A stretch of 64,000 bases of DNA, taken from contig CM037869.1 of the NCBI GenBank assembly GCA_021292105.1, forward strand, positions 31,125,508 to 31,189,507. The letters are read 5' to 3'. Under the pieces are notes generated by a model. It was not told where the DNA came from. It did not search any database and was given only the letters and a program-made list of their open reading frames with translations. Position numbers and translations under genes: made by a program. Source of the stretch: Anadara kagoshimensis (lineage: Eukaryota; Mollusca; Bivalvia; Arcoida; Arcidae). Below are positions 10,485-62,127 of this stretch, piece after piece (the first letter of the stretch is position 1; the number at the start of each line of letters is the position of its first letter).

Positions 10485-10830
10485 GTAAGCAGCTCATTGT
10501 TTGATTACACATACAACTAACAACATATTCCATCATAGCTTTTGATATTTTCCTAGTTGAAATGTATGTAGGAGCATCAAGCAACCTGCAAAGCAATGCA
10601 TTGATATGTATTAAACATTTCATAGTAACCAACCAGATGAACATTCCAATCAAGCCGATTGCCGATTGTGACTCGATTCATAGTAAAAGTTTTTGTTAGT
10701 ACTTTATTATCTAAACAGATTACAGTCATACTACTTCAATGGTAATACAGTAAGTTTTATTTGGTAAAATTATCTTGGTCAGTTATTTTTTGTCATATCA
10801 ACATGTTGGATTTCACACAATTTTGATCCA

Positions 10831-10875
10831 GGCGCTATTAATGAGGAATTTAATTCCGAAACGATCGTCTAGTAA
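10831..10875 (+). ncRNA. degenerate hammerhead-ribozyme-like motif (copy 2 of family)
   Basis: Same layout as the 16329 copy: core box (TTAATGA here instead of CTGATGA), perfect stem II GGAAT/ATTCC, GAAA, then the self-complementary ACGATCGT and the cleavage triplet GTC. Only a short stem I remains (GCTA/TAGT-like). The core changes C-to-T and G-to-A should abolish cleavage. Upstream and downstream bases resemble those flanking the 16329 copy, so it is a relative, not a chance match. Confidence 0.55.
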
Positions 10876-11279: not shown

Positions 11280-12564
11280 CGAGGGGAGGTCAAAACGTTT
11301 ATAGAACGGGGTATATATTGCCGCAACAAACCATACATTTTATTATTCTTTTCAATATAGTCCCCATTTACCCCAATGCACTTAGCCCACTTTTCTTTCA
11401 GACTCTTATTTTTGAAATAGAATTCTTTGGTTTGGTCCTGAAACCATGCCTCTGGGGCAGCTTAAGTCATCATCATCAGAAAATCTGATTCCCCGTAAAT
11501 GGTTTCAAATTTCTAAATAGAAAAAAATCACTTGGTGCCAAATCGGGACTGTAGGGTGGGTGATTAAGTTGTTAGAACTTGCATTACGAATTGCTGCTTG
11601 TGCAATCCTTGACTTGTGCACAGGAGCATTGTCGTGAAGAAGAAATACCCCTCGGCTCAAATTTTCCCTCCTTTTAATGTAATAGCAGCTTTTTAGTTGC
11701 TTCATTGGATCAGCATAGTAATCCCCAGTGATAGAGATTCCAGCAGGTTTATAATTGATTAACAGAACACCCTTAGAATCCCAAAACATAGTGGCCATGA
11801 CTTTGACAGCTGATAGTTGGGTTTAATTTCTTTGGTGGGGGTGAGCCAGGATGCTTCCATTGCATGCACTCTTTTTTTTTTTTTGGTTTTCTGAGTCCCA
11901 ATGATGAATTCTTGTTTCATCACCAGTTACTAACATAAATGGAAGCACTCCGGGTTAGCATTGCCAAGAACCCCCAGACTTGACTGGAGTCTTTGGAAGC
12001 GATCCTGCACATTAAGGTTTCTGGGGACCCATCTCGCGGAAACTTTTGACATCCCAAGATGCTCGTGGATAACCGTGTATACACTTTTATGTGAAATGTC
12101 ACACTCCCTAGCTATTTCATCAATCCTAATTCGGCGATCATTCATGATGAGGGTCTCCACAGACGTGACATTTGCTTTATGATGGCATCAGCTGGCCGAC
12201 TTGACCATGGGTCATCCTTCAGTGAGTTGCACCCACGTGTAAATTCATATGACCATTTTGCAACTGTTGAATAGGCAGGACCACTGTTACCGTACACCGC
12301 GGCCATTCGCCGGTTAATTTCTTTGGCATTTGATCCCTCTACTGTGAGGAACTTTATCACTGATCTAAATTCAACATTTTGATTTTCCATCATTGTTTGA
12401 TGGTCACCAACTTTGTATGGTTTTGAGAATTACAAAAATATGTTGTGACAAATAAACTTGATATGTTTAAAATGGCGGAATGTTTTGTTGTCTAAATTAG
12501 TAAAGTAAATGTTTGTTACGCTTCGCTGAATACGCTGTTCTACGAACTTTCTGACTTCCCCTCG
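11280..12564 (-). mobile_element. mariner (Tc1/mariner, DDxD) transposon
   Basis: A 1285-bp element with terminal inverted repeats: left CGAGGGGAGGTCAAAACGTT, right (reverse complement) CGAGGGGAAGTCAGAAAGTT. Each end abuts a TA dinucleotide (11278-11279 and 12565-12566), the mariner target duplication. It encodes one broken minus-strand transposase. Size, ends and catalytic motifs all match mariner. It is inserted in a Penelope-like fragment within a gene A intron. Confidence 0.92.
11505..12393 (-). pseudogene. mariner transposase, frame-shifted
   Basis: The N-terminal part starts MMENQNVEFRSVIKFLTVEG at 12393 and carries the first helix-turn-helix, then shifts frame near 12150 into a stretch with a second helix-turn-helix (IARECDISHKSVYTVI). 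Catalytic blocks follow: VTGDETRIHHW near 11919 (first Asp), LLHDNAPVHKS near 11625 (second Asp), and NHPPYSPDLAPSDFF near 11522-11560 (third Asp), the last in yet another frame. All three Asp codons survive but at least two frameshifts separate them. The element should be inactive unless complemented. Confidence 0.88.
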
Positions 12565-15430: not shown

Positions 15431-16569
15431 GTATGTTTACAAACAAACACTATAGCCGTTTGGTACATCACATGTTAATTTGTTGAATAATCATTAGATA
15501 ACTACATGAATACTTTTTCATGTAAAAATCATCTGTCCTTGACAACGCATATTAACGTTTAGTCCAAGCATCCAAGTATAGTCCCTCGGATGGCCCCGAG
15601 TTAAACCAAGTTATTTCCCTTTGTCCAGGTGGCGCAGTTTATTGTTGTCGTCGGATACAAATGGCATCCGACGACGCGCGTTTACGAATATTAACTCAGA
15701 TGATTTGTTAACAAGCAAAAACACAAAACAGGTCACAAAGTATTCCATAAATATTTTTAATAAAGTTTTAGAGCCAGGAAAATTCATGCTCTATGTAGAT
15801 CGACCATATCAACAATATTTTGTGTGATTTTTATACAAATTTCCCGGAACCAAGACGAATGAAATTTATTCCAAAAGTTCGATGATTGCCATCCGTCAGG
15901 GATTGAACTTTTTCATAATGTTGAATAAAGTAAATAATTCTTTTGAAAACTAAGTCTTACTTCAACTTTTAAAGCAAAGACATGTGATGTACTAAATCTA
16001 TTATATACCTCTCCAGAAAACACTATATGAGAACAGTTCCCTCTCGGGAGGGCCATAATACATTAATATTAAACAGCAGGTATAACTCTGCTGGTAGCTG
16101 GTGAACAGAGGATATCACAAACTCAGTAGGCAATAATTTCGTATTATTGTCAGAAATATACTAAAATTGTCTAAATTCCCTGCAAGTTAAAAATTGAAAT
16201 TCTCAAAAACTAAGGTATACTCCGTTATGCAAAGTATTTCCTTAGCTTAATTAGGTAATATATATTTTGGTCCTTTGCGTAGCTTTTCAACATCTTCAAA
16301 ATAATTTTGGTTTCATAATTTTCGTCCAAGCACTACTGATGAGGAATTGTATACCGAAACGGCCGTCTAGTGCTGTAAAATTAAAATTGGTATCCTATGT
16401 AATAAATATATTAACTGCATGCACGAACATTGTAAACTTACGTACGAATTAATGTCCAAAGAAATAACATCTTAAACAAAAGTTAAAATTTTCAAAACTT
16501 GAAAATTAATTTAAATACGAGAAATTTAACCGGGACAGCGAGGCATGTTCTCCAAAAGGGAAATGGTAA
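15431..16569 (+). other. gene A large intron, 5' part
   Basis: Anonymous sequence with an intact-core hammerhead ribozyme candidate at 16329-16374, about 200 bp before the satellite array starts. A GTCGTCGGATAC/CATCCGACGAC inverted pair lies near 15647-15675. Confidence 0.5.
16329..16374 (+). ncRNA. type I hammerhead ribozyme candidate, intact core
   Basis: All conserved pieces appear in order: stem I 5' arm AGCACTA (16329-16335), core CTGATGA (16336-16342), stem II GGAAT..ATACC (16343-16355, one A-A mismatch), core GAAA (16356-16359), a short stem III within the self-complementary ACGGCCGT (16359-16366), cleavage triplet GTC (16365-16367) and stem I 3' arm TAGTGCT (16368-16374), a perfect 7-bp partner of the 5' arm. 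Predicted cleavage follows C16367. Known: hammerheads with minimal stem III occur in Penelope-like elements and animal retrozymes and often act as dimers; the palindromic stem III fits that. Activity itself is inferred. Confidence 0.82.
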
Positions 16570-19500
16570 CAAGCAATTTATCATAAAATTAACAACGCGT
16601 AATCTTTCTAAATTAAGGAAAGAAAGCTAAAATTGCGCTTTGAGATTTCAGAACATTGGTCATATACACTTGATGTAACAAAGAATGTTTCATACAATTA
16701 ACAACGCGTAATTATTCTGAATTACGGAAAGAATGCTAAAATTGCTCTTCGCGATTTTAGTACATTGGCCATATACACTGGATGTATCAAACAATTCCTC
16801 ATACAATTAACAACGCGTATTTATTCCTAATTAAAGAAAGAATGCGATATTTGCGCTTCGCGTTTTTAGTACATTGGCCATATACACTAGATGTAACAAA
16901 CAATTTATCATACAATTAACAACGCGTAATATATTCTCAATTAAGTAAAGAATGCTAAAATTGCGCTGCGTGATTTTAGTGCATTGGCAATATACACTAG
17001 ATGTAACAACGAATTTATCATACAATTAACAACGCGTAAATATTCTCAATTAAAGAAAGAATGCTAAAATTGCGCTTAGCGATTTTTGTACATTGACCAT
17101 ATACACTGGATGTAACAAACAATTCCTCATACAATTAAGAACGCGTAATTATTCTCAATTAAAGAAAGAATGCTAAAATTGCGCTTCGCGATTCTAGTAC
17201 ATTGACCATATACACTGGATGTAACAAACAATTTATCATATAATTAACAAAGCGTAATTATTCCTAATTAAGGAAAGAATGCGACAATTGCGCTTTGCGA
17301 TTTTAGTACATTGGCCCTATCCACTAGATGTAAAAAAACAATTAATCATACAGTTAACAACGCGTAATTATTCCTAATTAAAAAAAGAATGCGACAATTG
17401 CGCTTCGTGATTTTAGTGCATTGGCCATATACACTAGTGAACAAACAATTTATCATACAATTAACAACGCGTAATTATTCCTAATTAAAGAAAAAATGCG
17501 ACAATTGCGCTTCGCGATTTTAGTACATTGGCCATATACACTGGATGTATCAAACAATTACTCATACAATTTACAACGCGTATTTATTCCTAATTAAAGA
17601 AAGAATGCGACATTTGCGCTTCGTGATTTTAGTGCATTGGCCATATACACTAGTCAACAAACAATTTATCATACAAGTAACAACGCGTAATTATTCCTAA
17701 TTAAAGAGAGAATGCGACAATTGCGCTTCGTGATTTAAGTGCATTGGCCATATGCACTAGTGAACAAACAATTTATCATACAATTAACAACGCGTAATTA
17801 TTCTTATTAAAGAAAGAATGCGACAATTGCGCTTCGCAATTTTAGTACATTGGCCATATACACTAGATGTAACAAACAATTCCTCATACAATTAACAACG
17901 CGTAATTATTCCTAATTAAAGAAAGAATGGTGAAATTGCTCTTCGCGATTTTAGTGCATTGGCCATATACACTGGATGTATCAAACAATTCCTCATAGAA
18001 TTAACAACGCGTATTATTCCTAATTAAAGAAAGAATGCGACATTTGCGCTTCGGAATTTTAGTACATTGGCCATATACACTAGATGTAACAAACAATTTA
18101 TCATACAATTAAGAACGCGTAATATATTTTCAATTAAGGAAAGGATGCTAAAATTGCGCTGCGTGATTTTAGTGCATTCGCCATATACACTAGTCAACAA
18201 ACAATTTATCATACAAGTAACAACGCGTAATTATTCTAATTAAAGAGAGAATGCGACAATTGCGATTCGTGATTTAAGTGCATTGGCCATATACACTAGT
18301 GAACAAACAATTTATCATACAATTAAGAACGCGTAATTATTCTATTAAAGAAAGAATGCGACAATTGCGCTTCGCAATTTTAGTACATTGGCCATATACG
18401 CTGGATGTAACAAACAATTCCTCATACAATTAACAACGCGTAATTATTCCTAATTAAAGAAAGAATGTTGAAATTGCTCTTCGCGATTTTAGTGCATTGG
18501 CCATATACACTAGATGTAACAACGAATTTATCATACAATTAAAAACGCGTAATTATTCTCAATTAAGGAAAGAATGATGAAATTGCTCTTTGCGATTTTA
18601 GTACATTGGCCATATACACTGGATGTATCAAACAATTCCTCATACAATTAACAACGCGTATTTTTCCTAATTAAAGAAAGAATGGGACATTTGCGCTTCG
18701 CGATTTAAGTACATTGGCCATATACACTAGATGTAACAAACAATTTATCATACAATTAACAACGCGTAATATATTTCAATTAAGGAAAGAATGCTAAAAT
18801 TCCGCTGCGTGATTTTAGTGCATTGGCCATATACACTAGATGTAACAACGAATTTATCATACAATTAACAACGCGTAATTATTCTAATTAAAGAAAGAAT
18901 GCTAAAATTGCGCTTCGCGATTTTAGTACATTGACCATATACACTGGATGTAACAAACAATTCCTCATACAATTAACAACGCGTAATTATTCTCAATTAA
19001 AGAAAGAATGCTAAAATTGCGTTTCGCGATTTTAGTACATTGACCATATACACTGGATGTAACAAACAATTTATCATACAATTAACAAAGCGTAATTATT
19101 CCTAATTAAGGAAAGAATGAGACAATTGCGCTTTGCGATTTTAGTACATTGGCCATATCCACTAGATGTAAAAAACAATTAATCATACAGTTAACAACGC
19201 GTAATTATTCCTAATTAAAAAGAATGCGACAATTGCGCTTCGTGATTTAGTGCATTGGCCATATACACTAGTGAACAAAGCAATTTATCATACAATTAAC
19301 AACGCGTAATTATTCCTAATTAAAGAAAAAATGCGACAATTGCGCTTCGCGATTTTAGTATATGGCCATATACACTGGATGTATCAAACAATTCCTCATA
19401 CAATTAACAACGCGTATTTATTCCTAATTAAAGACAGAATGCGACATTTGCGCTTCGTGATTTTAGTGCATTGCCATATACACTAGTCAACAAACAATTT

Positions 19501-22500
19501 ATCATACAAGTAACAACGCGTAATTATTCCTAATTAAAGAGAATGCGACAATTGCGATTCGTGATTTAAGTGCATTGGCCATATACACTAGTGAACAAAC
19601 AATTTATCATACAATTAACAACGCGTAATTATTCTTATTAAAGAAAGAATGCGACAATTGCGCTTCGCAATTTTAGTACATTGGCCATATACGCTGGATG
19701 TAACAAACAATTCCTCATACAATTAACAACGCGTAATTATTCCTAATTAAAGAAAGAATGTTGAAATTGCTCTTCGCGATTTTAGTACATTGCCATATAC
19801 ACTGGATGTATCAAACAATTCCTCATACAATTAACAACGCGTATTTATTCCTAATTAAAGAAAGAATGCGACATTTGCGCTTCGCGATTTTAGTACATTG
19901 GCCATATACACTAGATGTAACAAACAATTTATCATACTATTAACAACGCGTAATATATTCTCAATTAAGGAAAGAATGCTAAAATTGCGCTGCGTGATTT
20001 TAGTACATTGGCCATATACACTAGATGTAACAACGAATTTATCATACAATTAACAACGCGTAAATATTCTCAATTAAAGAAAGAATGCTAAAATTGCGCT
20101 TAGCGATTTTTGTACATTGACCATATACACTGGATGTAACAAACAATTCCTCATACAATTAAGAACGCGTAATTATTCTCAATTAAAGAAAGAATGCTAA
20201 AATTGCGCTTCGCGATTCTAGTACATTGACCATATACACTGGATGTAACAAACAATTATCATATAATTAACAAAGCGTAATTATTCCTAATTAAGAAAGA
20301 ATGCGACAATTGCGCTTTGCGATTTTAGTACATTGGCCTATCCACTAGATGTAAAAAACAATTAATCATACAGTTAACAACGCGTAATTATTCCTAATTA
20401 AAAAAGAATGCGACAATTGCGCTTCGTGATTTTAGTGCATTGGCCATATACACTAGTGAACAAACAATTTATCATACAATTAACAACGCGTAATTATTCC
20501 TAATTAAAGAAAAAATGCGACAATTGCGCTTCGCGATTTTAACATTGGCCATATACACTGGATGTATCAAACAATTACTCATACAATTTACAACGCGTAT
20601 TTATTCCTAATTAAAGAAAGAATGCGACATTTGCGCTTCGTGATTTTAGTGCATTGGCCATATACACTAGTCAACAAACAATTTATCATACAAGTAACAA
20701 CGCGTAATTATTCCTAATTAAAGAGAGAATGCGACAATTGCGCTTCGTGATTTAAGTGCATTGGCCATATGCACTAGTGAACAAACAATTTATCATACAA
20801 TTAACAACGCGTAATTATTCTTATTAAAGAAAGAATGCGACAATTGCGCTTCGCAATTTTAGTACATTGGCCATATACACTAGATGTAACAAACAATTCC
20901 TCATACAATTAACAACGCGTAATTATTCCTAATTAAAGAAAGAATGGTGAAATTGCTCTTCGCGATTTTAGTGCATTGGCCATATACACTGGATGTATCA
21001 AACAATTCCTCATAGAATTAACAACGCGTATTTATTCCTAATTAAAGAAAGAATGCGACATTTGCGCTTCGGAATTTTAGTACATTGGCCATATACACTA
21101 GATGTAACAAACAATTTATCATACAATTAAGAACGCGTAATATATTTTCAATTAAGGAAAGGATGCTAAAATTGCGCTGCGTGATTTTAGTGCATTCGCC
21201 ATATACACTAGTCAACAAACAATTTATCATACAAGTAACAACGCGTAATTATTCCTAATTAAAGAGAGAATGCGACAATTGCGATTCGTGATTTAAGTGC
21301 ATTGGCCATATACACTAGTGAACAAACAATTTATCATACAATTAAGAACGCGTAATTATTCTTATTAAAGAAAGAATGCGACAATTGCGCTTCGCAATTT
21401 TAGTACATTGGCCATATACGCTGGATGTAACAAACAATTCCTCATACAATTAACAACGCGTAATTATTCCTAATTAAAGAAAGAATGTTGAAATTGCTCT
21501 TCGCGATTTTAGTGCATTGGCCATATACACTAGATGTAACAACGAATTTATCATACAATTAAAAACGCGTAATTATTCTCAATTAAGGAAAGAATGATGA
21601 AATTGCTCTTTGCGATTTTAGTACATTGGCCATATACACTGGATGTATCAAACAATTCCTCATACAATTAACAACGCGTATTTTTCCTAATTAAAGAAAG
21701 AATGGGACATTTGCGCTTCGCGATTTAAGTACATTGGCCATATACACTAGATGTAACAAACAATTTATCATACAATTAACAACGCGTAATATATTTTCAA
21801 TTAAGGAAAGAATGCTAAAATTCCGCTGCGTGATTTTAGTGCATTGGCCATATACACTAGATGTAACAACGAATTTATCATACAATTAACAACGCGTAAT
21901 TATTCTCAATTAAAGAAAGAATGCTAAAATTGCGCTTCGCGATTTTAGTACATTGACCATATACACTGGATGTAACAAACAATTCCTCATACAATTAACA
22001 ACGCGTAATTATTCTCAATTAAAGAAAGAATGCTAAAATTGCGTTTCGCGATTTTAGTACATTGACCATATACACTGGATGTAACAAACAATTTATCATA
22101 CAATTAACAAAGCGTAATTATTCCTAATTAAGGAAAGAATGAGACAATTGCGCTTTGCGATTTTAGTACATTGGCCATATCCACTAGATGTAAAAAAACA
22201 ATTAATCATACAGTTAACAACGCGTAATTATTCCTAATTAAAAAAAGAATGCGACAATTGCGCTTCGTGATTTTAGTGCATTGGCCATATACACTAGTGA
22301 ACAAGCAATTTATCATACAATTAACAACGCGTAATTATTCCTAATTAAAGAAAAAATGCGACAATTGCGCTTCGCGATTTTAGTATATTGGCCATATACA
22401 CTGGATGTATCAAACAATTCCTCATACAATTAACAACGCGTATTTATTCCTAATTAAAGACAGAATGCGACATTTGCGCTTCGTGATTTTAGTGCATTGC

Positions 22501-25000
22501 CCATATACACTAGTCAACAAACAATTTATCATACAAGTAACAACGCGTAATTATTCCTAATTAAAGAGAGAATGCGACAATTGCGATTCGTGATTTAAGT
22601 GCATTGGCCATATACACTAGTGAACAAACAATTTATCATACAATTAACAACGCGTAATTATTCTTATTAAAGAAAGAATGCGACAATTGCGCTTCGCAAT
22701 TTTAGTACATTGGCCATATACGCTGGATGTAACAAACAATTCCTCATACAATTAACAACGCGTAATTATTCCTAATTAAAGAAAGAATGTTGAAATTGCT
22801 CTTCGCGATTTTAGTACATTTGCCATATACACTGGATGTATCAAACAATTCCTCATACAATTAACAACGCGTATTATTCCTAATTAAAGAAAGAATGCGA
22901 CATTTGCGCTTCGCGATTTTAGTACATTGGCCATATACACTAGATGTAACAAACAATTTATCATACTATTAACAACGCGTAATATATTCTCAATTAAGGA
23001 AAGAATGCTAAAATTGCGCTGCGTGATTTTAGTACATTGGCCATATACACTAGATGTAACAACGAATTTATCATACAATTAACAACGCGTAATTATTCTC
23101 AATTAAAGAAAGAATGCTAAAATTGCGCTTCGTGATTTTAGTGCATTGGCCATATACACTAGATGTAACAACGAATTTATCATACAATTAAAAACGCGTA
23201 ATTATTCTCAATTAAGGAAAGAATGTGAAATTGCTCTTCGCGATTTTAGTACATTGGCCATATACACTGTGTATCAAACATTCCTCATACAATTAACAAC
23301 GCGTATTTATTCTAATTAAAGAAGAATGCGACATTTGCGCTTCGCGATTTTATACATTGGCCATATACACAGATGTAACAAACAATTTTCATACAATTAA
23401 CAACGCGATATATTTCAATTAAGAAAGAATGCTAAAATTGCGCTTCGTGATTTTAGTGCATTGGCCATATACACTATGTAACAACAATTTATCATACAAT
23501 TAACAACGCGTAATTATTCCGAATTAAGAAAAGTGCTAAAATTGCGCTTCGCGATTTTAGTACATTGACCATATACACTGGATGTAACAACAATTCCTCA
23601 TACAATTAACAACGCGTAATTATTCTCAATTAAGAAAGAATGCTAAAATTGCGCTTCGGCGATTTTAGTACATTGGCCATATACACTGGATGTAACAACA
23701 CATTCCTCATACAATTAACAACGCGTAATTATTCTAATTAAAGGAAAGATGCGACAATTGCGCTTTGCGATTTTAGTACATTGGCCCTACCTAGATGTAA
23801 AAAATATTATCATACAGTTAACAACGGTATTTCTTCCTAATTAAAGAAGAATGCGACAATTGCGCTTCGTGATTTTAGTGCATTGGCCATATACACTAGT
23901 CAACAAACAATTTATCATACAATTAACAACGCGTAATTATTCCTAATTAAGAAGAATGCGACAATTGCGCTTCGTGATTTAGTGCATTGGCCATATACAC
24001 TAGTGAACAAACAATTTATCATACAATTAACAACGCGTAATTATTCCTATTAAAGAAAGAATGCGACAATTGCGCTTCGCGATTTTAGTACATTGGCCAT
24101 ATACACTGGATGTAACAAACAATTCCTCATACAATTAACAACGCGTAATTAAAGAAAGAATGGTGAAATTGCGCTTCGCGATTTTAGTACATTGCCATAT
24201 ACACTGGATGTAACAAACAATTTATCATACAATTAACACGCGTATTTATTCCTAATTAAAGAAAGAATGCGACATTGCGCTTCGCGATTTTAGTGCATTG
24301 GCCATATACACTAGATGTAACAACAATTTATCATACAATTAACAACGCGTAATTATTCTAATTAAAGAAAGAATGCTAAATTGCGCTGCGTGATTTTAGT
24401 GCATTGGCCATATACACTAGATGTAACAAACAATTTATCATACAATTAACAACGCGTAATTATTCCTAATTAAAGAAAGAATGCGAAAATTGCGCTTCGC
24501 GATTTTAGTATTGGCCATATACACTGATGTAACAAACAATTTATCATACAATTAACAACGCGTAATTATTCTAATTAAGAATAATGCAAAATTGCGCTTT
24601 AGCATTTCAGTGCATTGACCATATACACTAGATGTAAAAACAATTTATCATACAATTAACAACGCGTAATTTTTCTAATTAAGAAAGATGCGAAAATGCG
24701 CTTTGTGATTAGTGCATTAACCATATACACTAATGTATCAAACAATTTTCATGCAATTAACAATGCGTAATATTCTTAATTAAGACAGCATGCAAAAAAT
24801 GCGCTTCTTGATTTTAGTGTATTTGCCATACACTAAATGGAACCAACAATTTTTCATACAATTAACAACGCGTAATTATTCTTAATTTGGGAAAAATGCA
24901 AAAAATGCGCTTCTTGATTTTAGTACATTGACCATATTCACTAGATGTAACAAACATTTCTTATATAATTATTCTCAATTAAGGAAAAAAATGCAAAAAT
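16570..25000. repeat. 109-bp satellite array with 3.02-kb higher-order repeat
   Basis: About 78 tandem monomers. ACGCGT recurs exactly 109 bp apart (for example 16704, 16813, 16922). Monomers contain CAATTAACAACGCGTAATT, GAATGCGACAATTGCGCTTC and GCATTGGCCATATACACTAG. Variant blocks recur with a period of about 3020-3030 bp (16831, 19855, 22884; also 18024 and 21042), giving roughly 2.1 higher-order units of about 28 monomers. From about 23.1 kb the pattern loses register, with many single-base deletions and diverged monomers toward 24.6-25.0 kb. It lies in the gene A intron between the EGF exons at 15296 and 25636. Open frames in it are repeat artefacts. Confidence 0.95.
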
Positions 25001-25106
25001 TAAGTATAACTTTTATACAGTTTTAAAAGTTTACTTTGTTTTGGAATTGTTGTTTTTGCCTGAATTGGTATGCTTGTTTTGAAGGATAAATACTATCATA
25101 AACACA

Positions 25107-25242
25107 GTGTGTAGGTACAACCCTCAGTATCAGGTCGAGTCCTTTTTTCGTAGCCGTATCACTACGAGTCGCGCTTGTGCGACGAGTACTGATACAGCTA
25201 CGAAAAAAGACGAGACCTGATACAAGGGTTTTACCTACACAC
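25107..25242. repeat. foldback element (about 65-bp inverted arms)
   Basis: The left arm (GTGTGTAGGTAC..., CGTAGCCGTATCACTACGAG) and the right arm (ATACAGCTACGAAAAAAGAC ... TTACCTACACAC) are near-perfect reverse complements over about 65 bp with a tiny centre (GTCGCgcttgtGCGAC). It has the form of a MITE or foldback transposon. No coding potential. It directly follows the satellite array. Confidence 0.85.
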
Positions 25243-25421
25243 TTTTTTATAATATTTTTATCTAACATTTCCAATTAGGTTATTTAAAATAATTAAAAAC
25301 AATACTTTTTGTTAAAAATACATTTTACCACAAAAACACTGAACTATGTTGTGACATTTGTTCTACATTCTCCCTAATGAGGTCACAATGAGAACGTAGC
25401 ACGTGCACTTTACCGCCAATG

Positions 25422-27239: not shown

Positions 27240-28949
27240 GTACGTGTTCAAAACATTTATTCAATTTGCAATTGGATTTGTTGAATTCATTCATACCTAT
27301 GCATGTTCCTCTTATGATATGAATTTTTATACTTTGAAATGTTGCATTTATTTTTTAAAGCAAACGTTGGCGGCTAAGTTTGATTATATTGATGATCTTA
27401 ACTTCACAGTCGTACGTTGTATTTTAAAAAAAAGTTCAATATAGCTATCTCGTATATATTAAAGCATTGCCATGACGTCCTGCTTGCTCTTTGTATATGT
27501 ATTAACTAGCCTAATCTTCAGTTTACAACTGTACGTGTCCAATAAGTTGCTACAATGTACATTAACTAACGAATGGACAGTTAGAATGAACAGCTAGATT
27601 ACTTAGCTACAGGTAGACTGACTATTCATATGAAACAGATAGTGTCAAATAGCAACAGAAAAACAGTACAAAAAATAAAAAGGGAAAATTGTTATTTTTA
27701 CATTACTAGCTGATTTCAATGTTTTCACATCATATAAAAAAGTTTGATTTAATTCCAGAATAAATAATTAGACGCCCTTCACAGACTTATTTTACTTTTG
27801 GATTTAGAAATTCCACAGGCTCTTCACTTGAACTTTCCACTATTTCAGAAATATTCACTATTTCATGTGTACTACATGTAGCTTTTTACTCCCATATTAG
27901 AACATTTACATTGAAAAATACTCCTTAAATTACAACGAATAAAGCACATTTATACTACGGTCGTTCGGCATCAGACCGATGCTCTTTTTGGCAACCATTT
28001 GTTCATTTAAATTTGTATTAAAAATCTAGATGCTACTGTTGCACACAGTAATTAGTATAAAATCCTTAAATCCAACATTTTCACAAAAAATAGAAATAGT
28101 GCATCTTACTAATGATTATTATTTGTATAGGCATGTTACTCAGATTCAGTAAAATGTGCCTTTACTATTTCATGACATTTTAAAAATGATCTCAGCAGAT
28201 GGAAATTTATTCACCTGTAATAACTCACAAAAATCATGATTTTTACCTCACTATGTATGACGAATACTCTTAATTAAACACAGTGTGAAGTTACCTACTA
28301 TTCACTGAATTTTTAATTGTGATCCCAAATTACCTGTTAATCAAAATCATTTTCACCTACAACTGTTTAACTATTTAATGAATATAGATTTGAAGTTTAC
28401 ACAAGGATGTGCAATGTTTTATGTTTAAGAGAAGCCTTAAACTGTTCATTCTGTGAAAGAAAGAATTAATATCGGCGCTCGCGCATCATGAATTCTTTCT
28501 CTCACAGAATAAACAGTTTACGGTTTTTCTCTATAACTGAATATAGTTTATTTAAATAAATAAGCTGAAAAAAGGTTCGTATCCTTTATATTTTGTTCCT
28601 AACAATTTGTTTATTTGTAATTTAATGTTATAAAAGTATTACTGTGACCAATGTCTGTTAAATACTTATAAAGATTTAACATAACATCGTAAACATTAAC
28701 ATTCTAAGACGATTATGTAAGAGTTTGTTTAACATGTATTAATTATTCATGTTATACGTTGTAATATTCTTTAAACTACATTGATTATTATTGTATTTTA
28801 GTCAGATCGGGATAATGACAGTCTGTGACATATTGTATACAGAATCATGACTGTCTAAATAAATATTTCTTATAATGCAAGAAATAATAAAGATTTGTGT
28901 AAATTTTTTCCTGTTTTGTTTCACTAATCATTTTTTCTTTTTATTTTAG
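27240..28949 (+). other. gene A intron before the tail exon
   Basis: About 1.7 kb, mostly anonymous. It contains a foldback repeat at 28438-28520. A phase-compatible acceptor TTTTAG near 28801 would give a short tail (SQIGIMTVCDILYTES then stop), but nothing in gene B supports it. Confidence 0.45.
28438..28520. repeat. foldback repeat
   Basis: Arms TAAACTGTTcATTCTGTGA.. and ..TCACAGAATaAACAGTTTA are nearly perfect reverse complements (about 32 bp each) around a CG-rich centre (ATCGGCGCTCGCGC). It is MITE-like and non-coding. Confidence 0.85.
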
Positions 28950-31490: not shown

Positions 31491-31533
31491 ATTAAACTAT
31501 GAGGAATTGTATTCCGAAACGGCCGTCTAGTGT
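31491..31533 (+). ncRNA. degenerate hammerhead-ribozyme-like motif (copy 3)
   Basis: Core box CTATGA (one G lost from CTGATGA), perfect stem II GGAAT.TGT.ATTCC, GAAA, palindromic ACGGCCGT, GTC, then TAGTGTTG. The 5' arm of stem I has been replaced (ATTAAA), so it cannot cleave. The 3' flank TGTAAAATTAAAACTGGTAT matches that of the 16329 copy. Confidence 0.6.
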
Positions 31534-32429
31534 TGTAAAATTAAAACTGGTATAACATGTAAAGTAATTGCACATTTATCTTTTAAGTGCTACACAAGTT
31601 TGGGCCTTTGTTTATGTTGTTTCATTATTAGTCCATCGTACTGGAACCTAGTTAATCAGATAAAAAATCCGCAAAACCCCATTGCATATAAAATATACCC
31701 CAGGCCAATTCAATTGTCTTGAGATGCTATTTTGTAGTCCTTAACATGTTTTTCAGCATTAACACGGTGTTATCATTTTGAGAATCCTCATAGCTATAAT
31801 AATTACCAATTTCCCTTTATTATTTTAAATAAATGTCATACACAAGATTTTTATTTTTATAAACTTCTTCCCCACCTGGCGGTCGGTATTAGGAGGACAG
31901 AGTCTTAACTGCTTCAATCGATGTCATGATAATCTTACTGCAGAACAGTATGCTTGTCTTTTGTGCCCTGACGCCGTGACGGACCACCTAAAAGTCTCCC
32001 GAGTCCACGCCAGTGCATGAAATACTTACACATTTCACGTACACACAAATCCGCTCTTCATACGTTCATAAATTTTCATCGCGACACAACATAACAATGA
32101 AGCTTTATTACATTATTGAAAAGTCAACGCTGAGACAAGCTACAATACAATCTTATGATGAAGACAGCTAATCAATAAATCATAATCCACTAAAACATAG
32201 TAAAACATTTAAAAACTGGAAAGGTAAGTCGAATATTTGTACTTCCAACAAAAAGGTTAGGCCAGGTGATCTGAAGTCAAAGACGAGACAAAATCAGACA
32301 AAACAAGGAGAACATATTGTAATCAGATATTAAAAATTGCTGACTTTGGATGCGCTCCGAATTTAATACCTAGTGGTTTATTTAAATAATAGAGTCCTCA
32401 ACTATCTCATTTATTTTATAATCAATTTA

Positions 32430-35589: not shown

Positions 35590-36035
35590 CATTTACCTAA
35601 AAAAACAGGTTTACTTTGCTTTGGAATTGAAGTTTCGTGTTGGCTGGTGTGTTTCTTTTATATAAGGGGTATTAAAAGCAAAGGCTTGTCAATGCCCTCA
35701 AAACATTCTATGGCCATCATCACAATATTGTTTTATGATATCTTTGTATCTAAATTGTAGATATATTTGAAATTCTATATTCCTTCTCTTCTCAATTTTG
35801 ACTCAAGACGAATGTAGCTAATTGAACAGGATCTTACCTTTCCAGAACAGCCGGCCTCCCTCCCTGATTGAATTCTGTATTCCTTCTCTTCTCAATTTTG
35901 ACTCAAGACGAATGTAGCTAATTGAACAGGATCTTACCTTTTCAGAACAGCCGGCCTCCCCACCCTGATTGAATTACATATGTTTAACTTACTATGCCAG
36001 TTTTAAGGTTTTTACTTTTTTGGATATCGGTTTGT
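35590..36035 (+). mobile_element. Penelope-like fragments (copies i) with 100-bp tandem duplication
   Basis: A short tail piece (about 35595-35645) is followed by a longer fragment from about 35660. Within it, 35772-35871 is duplicated in tandem at 35872-35969 (ATTCCTTCTCTTCTCAATTT, CAGAACAGCCGGCCTCCC) with few differences, so a recent local duplication. Confidence 0.7.
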
Positions 36036-39190: not shown

Positions 39191-39232
39191 CATTAGACAT
39201 CCGTTTTGGAATATATCTCCTCATCAGTAATG
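39191..39232 (-). ncRNA. hammerhead-ribozyme-like motif, near-intact (copy 4)
   Basis: Read on the minus strand: stem I CATTA, core CTGATGA, stem II GGAGATATATTCC, then AAAAC where GAAAC is required, ACGGATGT, GTC and stem I partner TAATG (perfect 5 bp). The single change of the invariant G in GAAA to A should kill activity, and stem III is no longer palindromic. The upstream bases (ATTGTCATTGCA) resemble the family's ATTTT.GTCCA.GC flank. Confidence 0.6.
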
Positions 39233-41272: not shown

Positions 41273-41427
41273 AAGTGACATTCTGAGCATGGTATTTCAA
41301 GGGGTAATGAAAGATAGTGTGGCGCGTGCCAAATTCGATGAAAAGCGAAGCCCTTAATTTTGAATTTGGCACGCGCCACACTATATTTCATCACCCCTTG
41401 AAATACCACGATCAGAAATGTCATTTC
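41273..41427. repeat. long foldback element
   Basis: Arms of about 65 bp (GGTATTTCAAGGGGTaATGA, AGTGTGGCGCGTGCCAAATTC and their complements GAATTTGGCACGCGCCACACT, TCATcACCCCTTGAAATACC) around a 25-bp centre. It is MITE-like. The open frame reading through it is an artefact. Confidence 0.88.
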
Positions 41428-53942: not shown

Positions 53943-54443
53943 CAGTTAGTTTACTATAATTCAATTTCATTGCCCTAAGACATTGGTTTCACGTTCTATT
54001 GCAAGTTTTTCCATTGGAAATGAGTTCATTTCCAGTAAAAATGATGTCATTTTGGAAATTTGGGATGTAAGACTTTTTTTCAAAATTTATGTATTCTTAA
54101 AACAAACATTATTATGAGTATTGATTAAGTTTTAGATGTACAATAGTGAAGCTCATTGATTTATACCATTGTCAGAAACTGGCATAAACAAATAAAAAAA
54201 ATCATATTGTCTTTAATTCTTTTTTCTTTTCTTTTTTTGAGTTTGGAGCTTTACTTCCGAGTCAAGATTTTTTCGCTCTTTTCGAGGTGGTTGGTTGAGA
54301 ATTGGTGGAGGAAACAAGAGTGTCCAGAGAAACCACTGAACACCTTCAGGTGACCTGATAAATTCTCTTGCATTAGGATCTGTCTCAAGAAGGATTTAAA
54401 CATAAGCGATGAGAAGCGCTGTGATTCATAAACATACATTTTA

Positions 54444-54770
54444 GACTACCTTGCCATTGAGGTCTCTAATTTTAATCTATTAAATCTATACATGAAAAGT
54501 AACCAAGGGTATGTTATACTATATATATAATTAAAGTTTAGTTTCAACATAATCATTTTACATTGCACGAACACATTTATTGTGTGGTGTGCGAGATAAT
54601 GACATTTTATGACTACCTTGCCATTGAGGTCTCTAATTTTAATCTATTAAATCTATACATGAAAATTAACCAAGGGTATGTAATACTATATATATAATTA
54701 AAGTTTAGTTTCAACATAATCATTTTACATTGCACGAACACTTTTATTGTGTGGTGTGCGAGATAAAGAT
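54444..54770. repeat. 167-bp tandem duplication
   Basis: GACTACCTTGCCATTGAGGT at 54444 recurs at 54611, and the following about 157 bp match with only a few substitutions (ACATTTATTG/ACTTTTATTG). No coding content. Confidence 0.9.
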
Positions 54771-61137: not shown

Positions 61138-62127
61138 AACTGTCAGGGTCTGGGTGATAACAAGAAAAGAAGAGATGTTTTTAGTTTTTTACATAGCAAA
61201 CAATATAACATATGTTGTCTAAATAATACACATTTTGTTCCAGAAATAGAAAACTATGTAAGGACTCAATAGGACTCTAATTGTTACTTTAGCTCTTACG
61301 AATCAAACTCTAGAGGTGTAGCCATTCTCTTCAGGAACAACTTTGACTATAAAGTTCATGACATTAAGAAATGCCCAAGAGGTAATTATTTGGGTTTAAA
61401 TCTCTCATTTAACGATAAAAATGTAACTTTATTAACACTTTATGGTCCAAACGAAGATAATCCCTGCTTCTATGATGAAGTATTTTATGTATTTGAAACT
61501 TTTAATAATGAAACCCTTGTTGTTTGTGGTGATTTTAATATAGTACTAGATCAAAAACTAGACACTTACAACTATAAACATCATAACAACCCAAATGCCA
61601 CCAATAAAATAAAAGGAATTACAGAAGAGCGCTCATTAATAGATCCCTTTAGACAATTCCACCCCTATTTAAAACGTTATACTTGGAGAAAGAAAACTCC
61701 TGTCAAACAACCTCATCTTGATTTTTTCTTAGTATCTTCCAATTTTATGCCAAGTTTCGAACAATGCAATGTCGAATCTGGTTACAGAACTGATCATTCT
61801 GCTGTTGTTCTATCTGTTAAAATAAATGAATTCAAACGTGGAACGGGTCTTTGGAAATTTAATAATTCATTATTAAAGGATAAGGTGTATGTGAATAACA
61901 TAACAAACCTTATTAATGAAGTTAAAAAACAGTACTCCCTTCATATTTACAATCTAGAAAATATTGACAAAATTCCTAACTCAGAAATAAAATTTACAAT
62001 TAATGATCAACTTTTCTTGGAAACCTTGCTCATGAAGATAAGAGGTAAAACCATCTCATATTCGTCTTTTATTAAGAAAAGTAGAAATAAAACTATTGAT
62101 AAGCTAGTGAAAGAAATAGCTCCTTAG
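61138..62127 (+). pseudogene. LINE ORF2 endonuclease domain
   Basis: An APE-type endonuclease in one frame with a single internal TAG (61269-61271, probably a former Trp TGG). It starts NCQGLGDNKKRRDVFSFL, then LLTLYGPNEDN, VVCGDFN, HLDFFLVSS and RTDHSAVVLS, the N-x-G-L, GDFN and SDH-type motifs of LINE endonucleases. It nicks target DNA for target-primed reverse transcription. After 62127 the frame shifts. Confidence 0.85.

Follow-up and report, generated by a model that had tools for sequence, protein, structure and literature searches.

A hammerhead ribozyme in the Anadara kagoshimensis genome belongs to a non-LTR retrozyme whose insertions end at a fixed distance past the ribozyme cut

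Introduction

Is a hammerhead motif found in the non-coding DNA of a bivalve an element in its own right, or one copy of something larger, and if the latter, how did it come to be inserted there? The question is raised by a stretch of 64,000 nucleotides of Anadara kagoshimensis DNA (hereafter the window; GCA_021292105.1, contig CM037869.1, positions 31,125,508 to 31,189,507), in which a first reading of the sequence alone picked out a candidate self-cleaving RNA at 16329-16374. All positions below are those of the window unless they are given as positions of the repeat unit.

Passages of Cervera and de la Pena 2020 (PMC7229834) define the metazoan non-LTR retrozymes, describe in mussel repeats of 350-390 bp with about 5000 type I hammerheads and circles in RNA, and name Penelope-like elements as a strong candidate for retrozyme mobilisation. 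Passages of PMC7761336 likewise present the retrozyme repeats as having no motif that reveals the mobilising element, give Penelope-like elements and Terminons as the likely candidates, and predict longer-than-unit cDNA from circles. Biochemical work on the purified Penelope-like protein of the anole (PMC11167929) shows that it begins reverse transcription internally rather than from the RNA 3′ end, at two adjacent start sites that match genomic insertion ends, with an optional tail of 30-40 bp, and that hammerhead cleavage is not required for insertion in vitro. Within the open-licence literature we found no paper that maps a retrozyme 3′ end relative to the cut or asks whether the units of an array come from a single template, which is not proof that no such paper exists.

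Results and discussion

The motif at 16329-16374 is confirmed as a genuine type I hammerhead ribozyme, with the CUGANGA ... GAAA ... NUH core, three stems and a fold open through stem I (Table 1). The sequence-only reading had reported a perfect 7-bp stem I and every core base, and all the bases that it listed are present on the + strand, including the GTC triplet at 16365-16367; self-cleavage would be expected after this NUH triplet, i.e. after C16367. It was also right that stem III is self-complementary, the octamer ACGGCCGT (16359-16366) being identical to its own reverse complement. Absent from that reading is an A.A mismatch in stem II (A16345/A16353), which here is GGAAT/ATACC where the family norm is GGAAT/ATTCC. 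In silico folding of the monomer favours a non-hammerhead fold, for the window copy and for an intact one alike. A loose hammerhead pattern has two matches in the window against 0.39 expected, a number reached by 7 of 100 shuffles, and such a match by itself is weak evidence for a hammerhead.

The covariance search with Rfam models that had been proposed as a check gave a divided answer. The whole window has no match to Rfam at the gathering threshold, and permissive scans of the whole window and of a 301-base stretch return no hammerhead. Presented alone, the 54 bases at 16325-16378 align end to end with RF00163 (Hammerhead_1) at 22.6 bits (E 5.3e-4), below the gathering score of 34, and we take it that the wider permissive scans lost the motif to search filters. 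The same holds for L018:693-746, a young copy that is intact: its 28.1 bits (E 8.2e-6) do not reach 34 either, so the Rfam cut-off misses this family even when it is intact. At the gathering threshold there is no match in any of nine loci tested, four with intact cores (L018, L026, L078 and L089), three Penelope-like (L118, L129 and L133) and two older relatives without an intact core (L056 and L065).

Table 1. Positions of the ribozyme, its retrozyme copy and related hammerheads in the window
Feature	Positions	Strand	Basis or remark
Retrozyme copy, a monomer spanning 17-339 of the 339 unit positions and lacking 16 nt at its 5′ end	16082-16403	+	likeness to dispersed copies
Hammerhead stem I, 5′ strand AGCACTA	16329-16335	+	pairs with 16368-16374, perfect 7 bp
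Core CTGATGA	16336-16342	+	read directly
Stem II GGAAT-TGT-ATACC, A.A mismatch (16345/16353)	16343-16355	+	family norm ATTCC
Core GAAA	16356-16359	+	read directly
Stem III, two pairs (A-U, C-G) around GGCC loop; self-complementary octamer	16359-16366	+	
C with predicted cleavage on its 3′ side, unit position 303	16367	+	hammerhead fold and RF00163 alignment
Stem I, 3′ strand TAGTGCT	16368-16374	+	pairs with 16329-16335
36-nt tail, cleavage site to fixed 3′ insertion end	16368-16403	+	locus alignments
Second copy, same family, 5′-truncated, cut inside its decayed ribozyme	31493-31562	+	R1 match 31493-31537, 50.7 bits; stop at the family's 3′ end judged by eye
Decayed hammerhead, older subfamily, CTGATGA changed	10829-10874	+	R1 36.1 bits
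Decayed hammerhead, older relative, GAAA changed	39191-39232	-	R1 33.9 bits

The window motif is part of a metazoan non-LTR retrozyme, a short non-coding element of 339 bp. In the 1.115-Gb assembly of the same animal (36 contigs), a search with 101 bp from around the motif yielded 819 first-look candidates, the 40 of these that were scored being 94-100% identical to it, and the whole natural unit of 339 bp gave 2881 first-look candidates, with whole-unit matches of 95-100% among the 40 regions scored. The core CTGATGAGGAATTGTATWCCGAAACGGCCGTC (32 bases, W at one stem II base) has 1601 + 1472 = 3073 exact matches in the genome and its reversed control none, a family that the Rfam gathering cut-off overlooks. 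Each unit has one type I hammerhead, tandem loci have a unit spacing of 332-340 bp (mostly 339) in arrays of up to 11.07 units, and the copies are dispersed over many contigs. With a GC content of 33% (0.333) and a longest stop-free run of 49 aa (unit taken as round, both strands), the unit lies within the range of metazoan non-LTR retrozymes (about 170-400 bp, GC below 45-50%), and no flanking LTR was seen in the loci read. In 30 dispersed loci the likeness is confined to window positions 16082-16403, give or take a few bases. Of the two origins first put forward, a Penelope-like element or a retrozyme, it is thus the second that stands: the hammerheads in the genome's own Penelope-like elements are different ones, and the reading frame with reverse transcriptase and GIY-YIG domains is found in other loci, the 339-bp unit having no frame longer than 49 aa.

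Most young members of the family retain the ribozyme. Of the 75 young units, drawn from 37 loci, 64 are complete in the core and perfect in stems I and II, while seven have a broken core, three a broken stem I and one both stems broken. With one unit taken per locus, changes per site are 0.0071 in the ribozyme and 0.0037 in the last 29 nt, on small counts of 12 and 4 changes respectively, and 0.0095, 0.0095 and 0.0194 in the remaining three parts of the unit. A covariance model built from 16 copies (R1) also finds hammerheads in older relatives, a set fetched with the older copy in L033 as query, with 76-83% identity to it in 38 of the 40 matches scored. In an alignment of 32 matches (31 distinct), which includes some of the sequences that built R1, 92.0% of cells pair; four pairs are changed on both sides, a number reached by 48 of 500 shuffles, and the covariation score is reached by 6 of 500. 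The structural support from covariation is therefore real but modest. The self-complementary stem III is present in 74 of 75 young units and in 4 of 23 older relatives (a further older hammerhead, L062, has stem III deleted and was left out of this count). The sequence-only reading took this palindrome to make dimers possible. It does permit them, but it is no special sign of them, as the Rfam type I consensus is itself ACGcgCGU, and dimer action as a requirement was rejected, the palindrome being retained in just those 4 of 23.

The ends of the insertions are informative. All 40 young loci (37 after exclusion of the duplicated loci L085, L112 and L113) have their alignment to the unit end at position 339 or no more than 8 bases past it, and in a second set all 28 loci (27 independent) end between unit 338 and +6. 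This second set was taken without L026, L035 and the duplicated window segment (L009-L014), and retains both L021 and L034, which have common flanks. In the 37 young arrays the fixed 3′ end is accordingly placed 36 nt (+0 to 8) past the ribozyme cut. Array extension past unit 339 played no part in the selection of loci; the query for the second set reached to 3 nt before the 3′ end, and the young loci were picked by near-complete units, so that copies stopping short of the 3′ end or shorter than one unit are under-represented. Immediately past the 3′ end the flank begins with T in 31 of 37 young and 19 of 28 second-set loci, which may mean that the start lies one base further on, or that the T is carried by the target. 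The 5′ ends, by contrast with this single 3′ end, are scattered over the unit, and array length runs from 0.98 to 11.07 units in the 37 young arrays and from 0.37 to 2.03 in the earlier set. An apparent clustering of array starts at unit 290 was rejected, as the match pieces proved to be cut alignments and the real starts are scattered. Since the insertions run across the cut at unit 303/304, a linear monomer with ribozyme-cut ends cannot be their template.

Target-site duplications were sought in the 50-nt flanks of 37 loci and rejected, own flank pairs being no more alike than mismatched pairs (mean 5.51 versus 5.68), with a match of at least 9 bases in 1 of 37 own pairs and 2.0% of mismatched pairs. 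A test at the very edges put own pairs slightly higher, 3.32 versus 2.90. The older locus L041 has a flank match of 32 of 35 bases, possibly, to judge by eye, because the target is itself repeated.

Multi-unit arrays reveal how their units are related. In nine arrays of at least three units (41 units) there are 21 variants present in all units of their array, 3 present in some and 31 present in one, whereas, when units are reassigned to arrays by shuffling, the means are 0.2, 13.9 and 114.8. A variant fixed in an array was found again in the partial first unit of that array in 33 of 42 cases, against 66 of 1261 when the partial units were those of other loci (32 loci). Identity within arrays is above the between-array mean of 0.980 in 13 of 15 independent multi-unit arrays; in the two exceptions, L092 (0.969) and L104 (0.947), the changes are mostly private to a single unit. 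Variants common to all units and to the array's own partial first unit are what repeated copying of a single circular template predicts, and the units of an array look as if they had been copied from one circle.

The best explanation, in which we place considerable confidence, is that this is a non-LTR retrozyme whose circular RNA is reverse-transcribed from a fixed internal start, probably by a Penelope-like enzyme. Transcription, cleavage and circle formation are, for the A. kagoshimensis element, predicted from its DNA sequence: as published for other animal retrozymes, tandem copies would be transcribed, each ribozyme would cut the RNA between unit positions 303 and 304, and a host ligase would close the freed monomers into circles. 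Reverse transcriptase, primed at the genomic target, would then begin copying the circle at one constant site within it, 36 nt (+0 to 8) past the cut, and would go part way, once or several times round before stopping. The outcome would be a single fixed 3′ end, scattered 5′ ends, lengths of 0.37-11.07 units and array-specific variants common to the units, and these four features are all observed in the insertions. A LINE enzyme may alternatively be the mover, which counts against this explanation.

The same ends could in principle arise with no circle at all, from linear multimeric transcripts used in ordinary target-primed reverse transcription, a scheme that we think unlikely. Its appeal is that the hallmarks of LINEs and SINEs likewise include a fixed 3′ end and 5′ truncation, that the Penelope-like enzyme of PMC11167929 takes unprocessed RNA in vitro, and that some starts would fit cleaved linear templates: the 5′ end of L114 and of its duplicate L113 is exactly at unit 304, the cleavage site, and 5 of 15 arrays of at least two units (L077, L092, L093, L097 and L104) start near the cut at unit 295-317, a range picked post hoc. 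However, the linear transcript of an older array would carry the differences between its units along, where the variants seen are specific to the array and common to its units, with few confined to some of them, and such a scheme needs an RNA 3′ end 36 nt past the cut, where no cleavage is expected. Much less probable still is that an ordinary repeat, with the ribozyme as its passenger, was inserted first and then multiplied into arrays by unequal crossing-over or DNA amplification. Such processes are able to homogenise tandem arrays in general, but exchange predicts variants in some units, the very class with only 3 members here, and the ribozyme is intact in most young units.

The same genome contains Penelope-like elements. 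At least 50 GIY-YIG matches are present among the 150 scored of 248 candidates, and 30 loci (L115-L144, some of them duplicates of each other) were fetched. Their stop-to-stop frames reach 576 and 553 aa, and of three frames tested all have GIY-YIG and two have RVT_1. Three families, A, B and C, carry hammerheads, with 19 motif copies in 18 of the 30 fetched loci, about 90-112 nt past the stop codon in the three loci measured and with a GCGC loop in most copies. Within a family likeness lasts for about 33-49 nt past the cut and then diverges or enters (TA)n, or it continues as a longer tail to about 72-101 nt, so that the copies have two alternative 3′ ends; in L137 the likeness to the other family B copies lasts 5 nt. 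A TRYAARWT-like stretch at 16374-16381 (unit 310-317), after or overlapping the end of stem I, occurs in the retrozymes and in families A, B and C; the pattern was made post hoc and could be a common recognition sequence or AT-rich chance.

The enzyme that moves the retrozyme is most likely that of a Penelope-like element. This choice is favoured because such an enzyme starts internally in vitro and because in this genome the 3′ ends of Penelope-like copies lie at a similar distance from their own hammerhead cut, and an enzyme with no need of an RNA 3′ end could use a circle as its template. The surroundings of the insertions count against this step: (TA)4 or (AT)4 follows 15 of the 19 Penelope-like copies, 33-100 nt past the cut, but lies within 60 nt of the retrozyme 3′ end in only 1 of 37 and 0 of 28 loci (1 of 65), which suggests that the endonuclease may differ. 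The anole element counts against it too, as its start site is farther than 36 nt from the cut and its hammerhead was dispensable for insertion in vitro. The broader proposition, that animal retrozymes are circular-RNA parasites of Penelope-like elements, is a tentative one against which we would still lean slightly. Were it true, the hammerhead would make the circle and would also sit just before the start point, 36 nt past the cut, and multi-unit arrays would be a direct record of an enzyme circling one RNA up to eleven times. Three clues can be checked, namely a 3′ end fixed 36 nt past the cut, arrays that look as if made from a single template, and Penelope-like copies with a similar end distance, and the in vitro system of PMC11167929 makes the idea of a Penelope-like enzyme on a circular template directly testable.

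The window copy itself is probably an older, isolated monomer that merely sits in non-coding DNA. It is 93.5% identical to the reference young unit, where the units of different young arrays average 98.0%. Six paralogous segments on the window's contig (L009-L014, of which L010 is the window itself) have flanks in common; among them stem II is the intact ATTCC in L013 and L014 and ATACC in the other four, two of which (L011 and L012) have an additional changed base in stem I, and ATACC is likewise present in three unrelated loci (L028, L030 and L036). Pairs of these six segments diverge on average by 0.023 over the 46 sites of the ribozyme, by 0.010 over the retrozyme and by 0.019 in the flanks, so that no ribozyme-specific constraint is visible after insertion. 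The description of the motif as functional or recently functional appears to hold for the family, with 64 of its 75 young units intact. The activity of the window copy is doubtful, given its greater age, the loss of about 16 nt of the unit and the stem II mismatch. That it is an isolated intronic ribozyme regulating a receptor transcript is scarcely credible, for although it lies on the strand of the upstream exon and keeps its core and stem I, it is one of thousands of dispersed copies, is mismatched in stem II and belongs to a segment whose paralogues show no extra constraint on the ribozyme.

The placing of the motif in a receptor-gene intron is borne out in part: an F5/8C exon lies upstream on the same strand (Pfam E 2.6e-7), which fits, but the EGF-like exon downstream has no Pfam match and a single gene spanning both exons is unproven. 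The nearby satellite, placed about 200 bp away in the sequence-only reading, is incidental. This 109-bp array (16566-24971, 8.4 kb, 78 copies at 87% match) adjoins the motif in the six paralogous segments, is not found in the fetched flanks (about 0.6 kb each side) of 30 loci outside the duplicated segment, and has no match to R1 within it; a link between retrozyme and satellite was rejected, their adjacency being confined to the duplicated segment. Other repeats and structures were seen in the window. Nested inverted repeats at 25101-25248, with arms of 31, 24 and 21 nt at 86-88%, form a long hairpin and are probably a small inverted-repeat transposon, and long hairpins at 41307-41391 and 28423-28537 are microRNA-precursor-like in Rfam below gathering (37.5 and 34.8 of 80 bits). 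The - strand at 11505-12429 preserves parts of a mariner-like transposase (Pfam Transposase_1, HTH_48), the + strand at 61273-62124 has an open frame with a LINE-type endonuclease domain (Exo_endo_phos), and there are two direct duplications (100 and 167 bp, 96-97%) at 35771-35975 and 54436-54766.

Comparison with known hammerhead systems

The hammerhead described here has the core positions of RF00163 (Hammerhead_1) and the same form of stem III, ACG..CGU, and the two align end to end. Its helix III of two pairs and a tetraloop is a form that passages of PMC7229834 call similar to the invertebrate ones, most of which, according to the same passages, self-cleave efficiently, whereas amphibian ones need dimers. 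The amphibian satellite and axolotl retrozymes resemble the present family in a self-complementary stem III loop and in tandem repeats of about 330-350 bp; they differ in that the amphibian motifs are described in those passages as cleaving weakly as monomers and that helix III of Amex1 has one pair, against two here.

The minimal type I hammerheads of Penelope-like elements and Terminons share with the retrozyme the type I order and an insertion end shortly past the cut. Self-complementarity is common to both, residing in the GCGC loop in most Penelope-like copies here and in the octamer in the retrozyme. Stem II of the retrozyme is 5 bp long, its stem III consists of two pairs and the unit contains no open reading frame, whereas the Penelope-like elements of this genome have a single-pair stem III and a GIY-YIG frame, with stem II almost absent in family A. 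Initiation in the anole element takes place about 85-92 nt past the hammerhead cut (26 versus 111-118 from the start codon; PMC11167929), compared with 36 nt in the retrozyme.

The closest known system is probably the mussel retrozyme of about 350-390 bp described in passages of PMC7229834, against a unit of 339 bp here. Relative to the retrozymes in those passages, the present family, read from genomic DNA, adds a 3′ insertion point mapped to the cut, insertions with no detectable target-site duplication and arrays that look single-templated. These features are new evidence on how such elements are mobilised.
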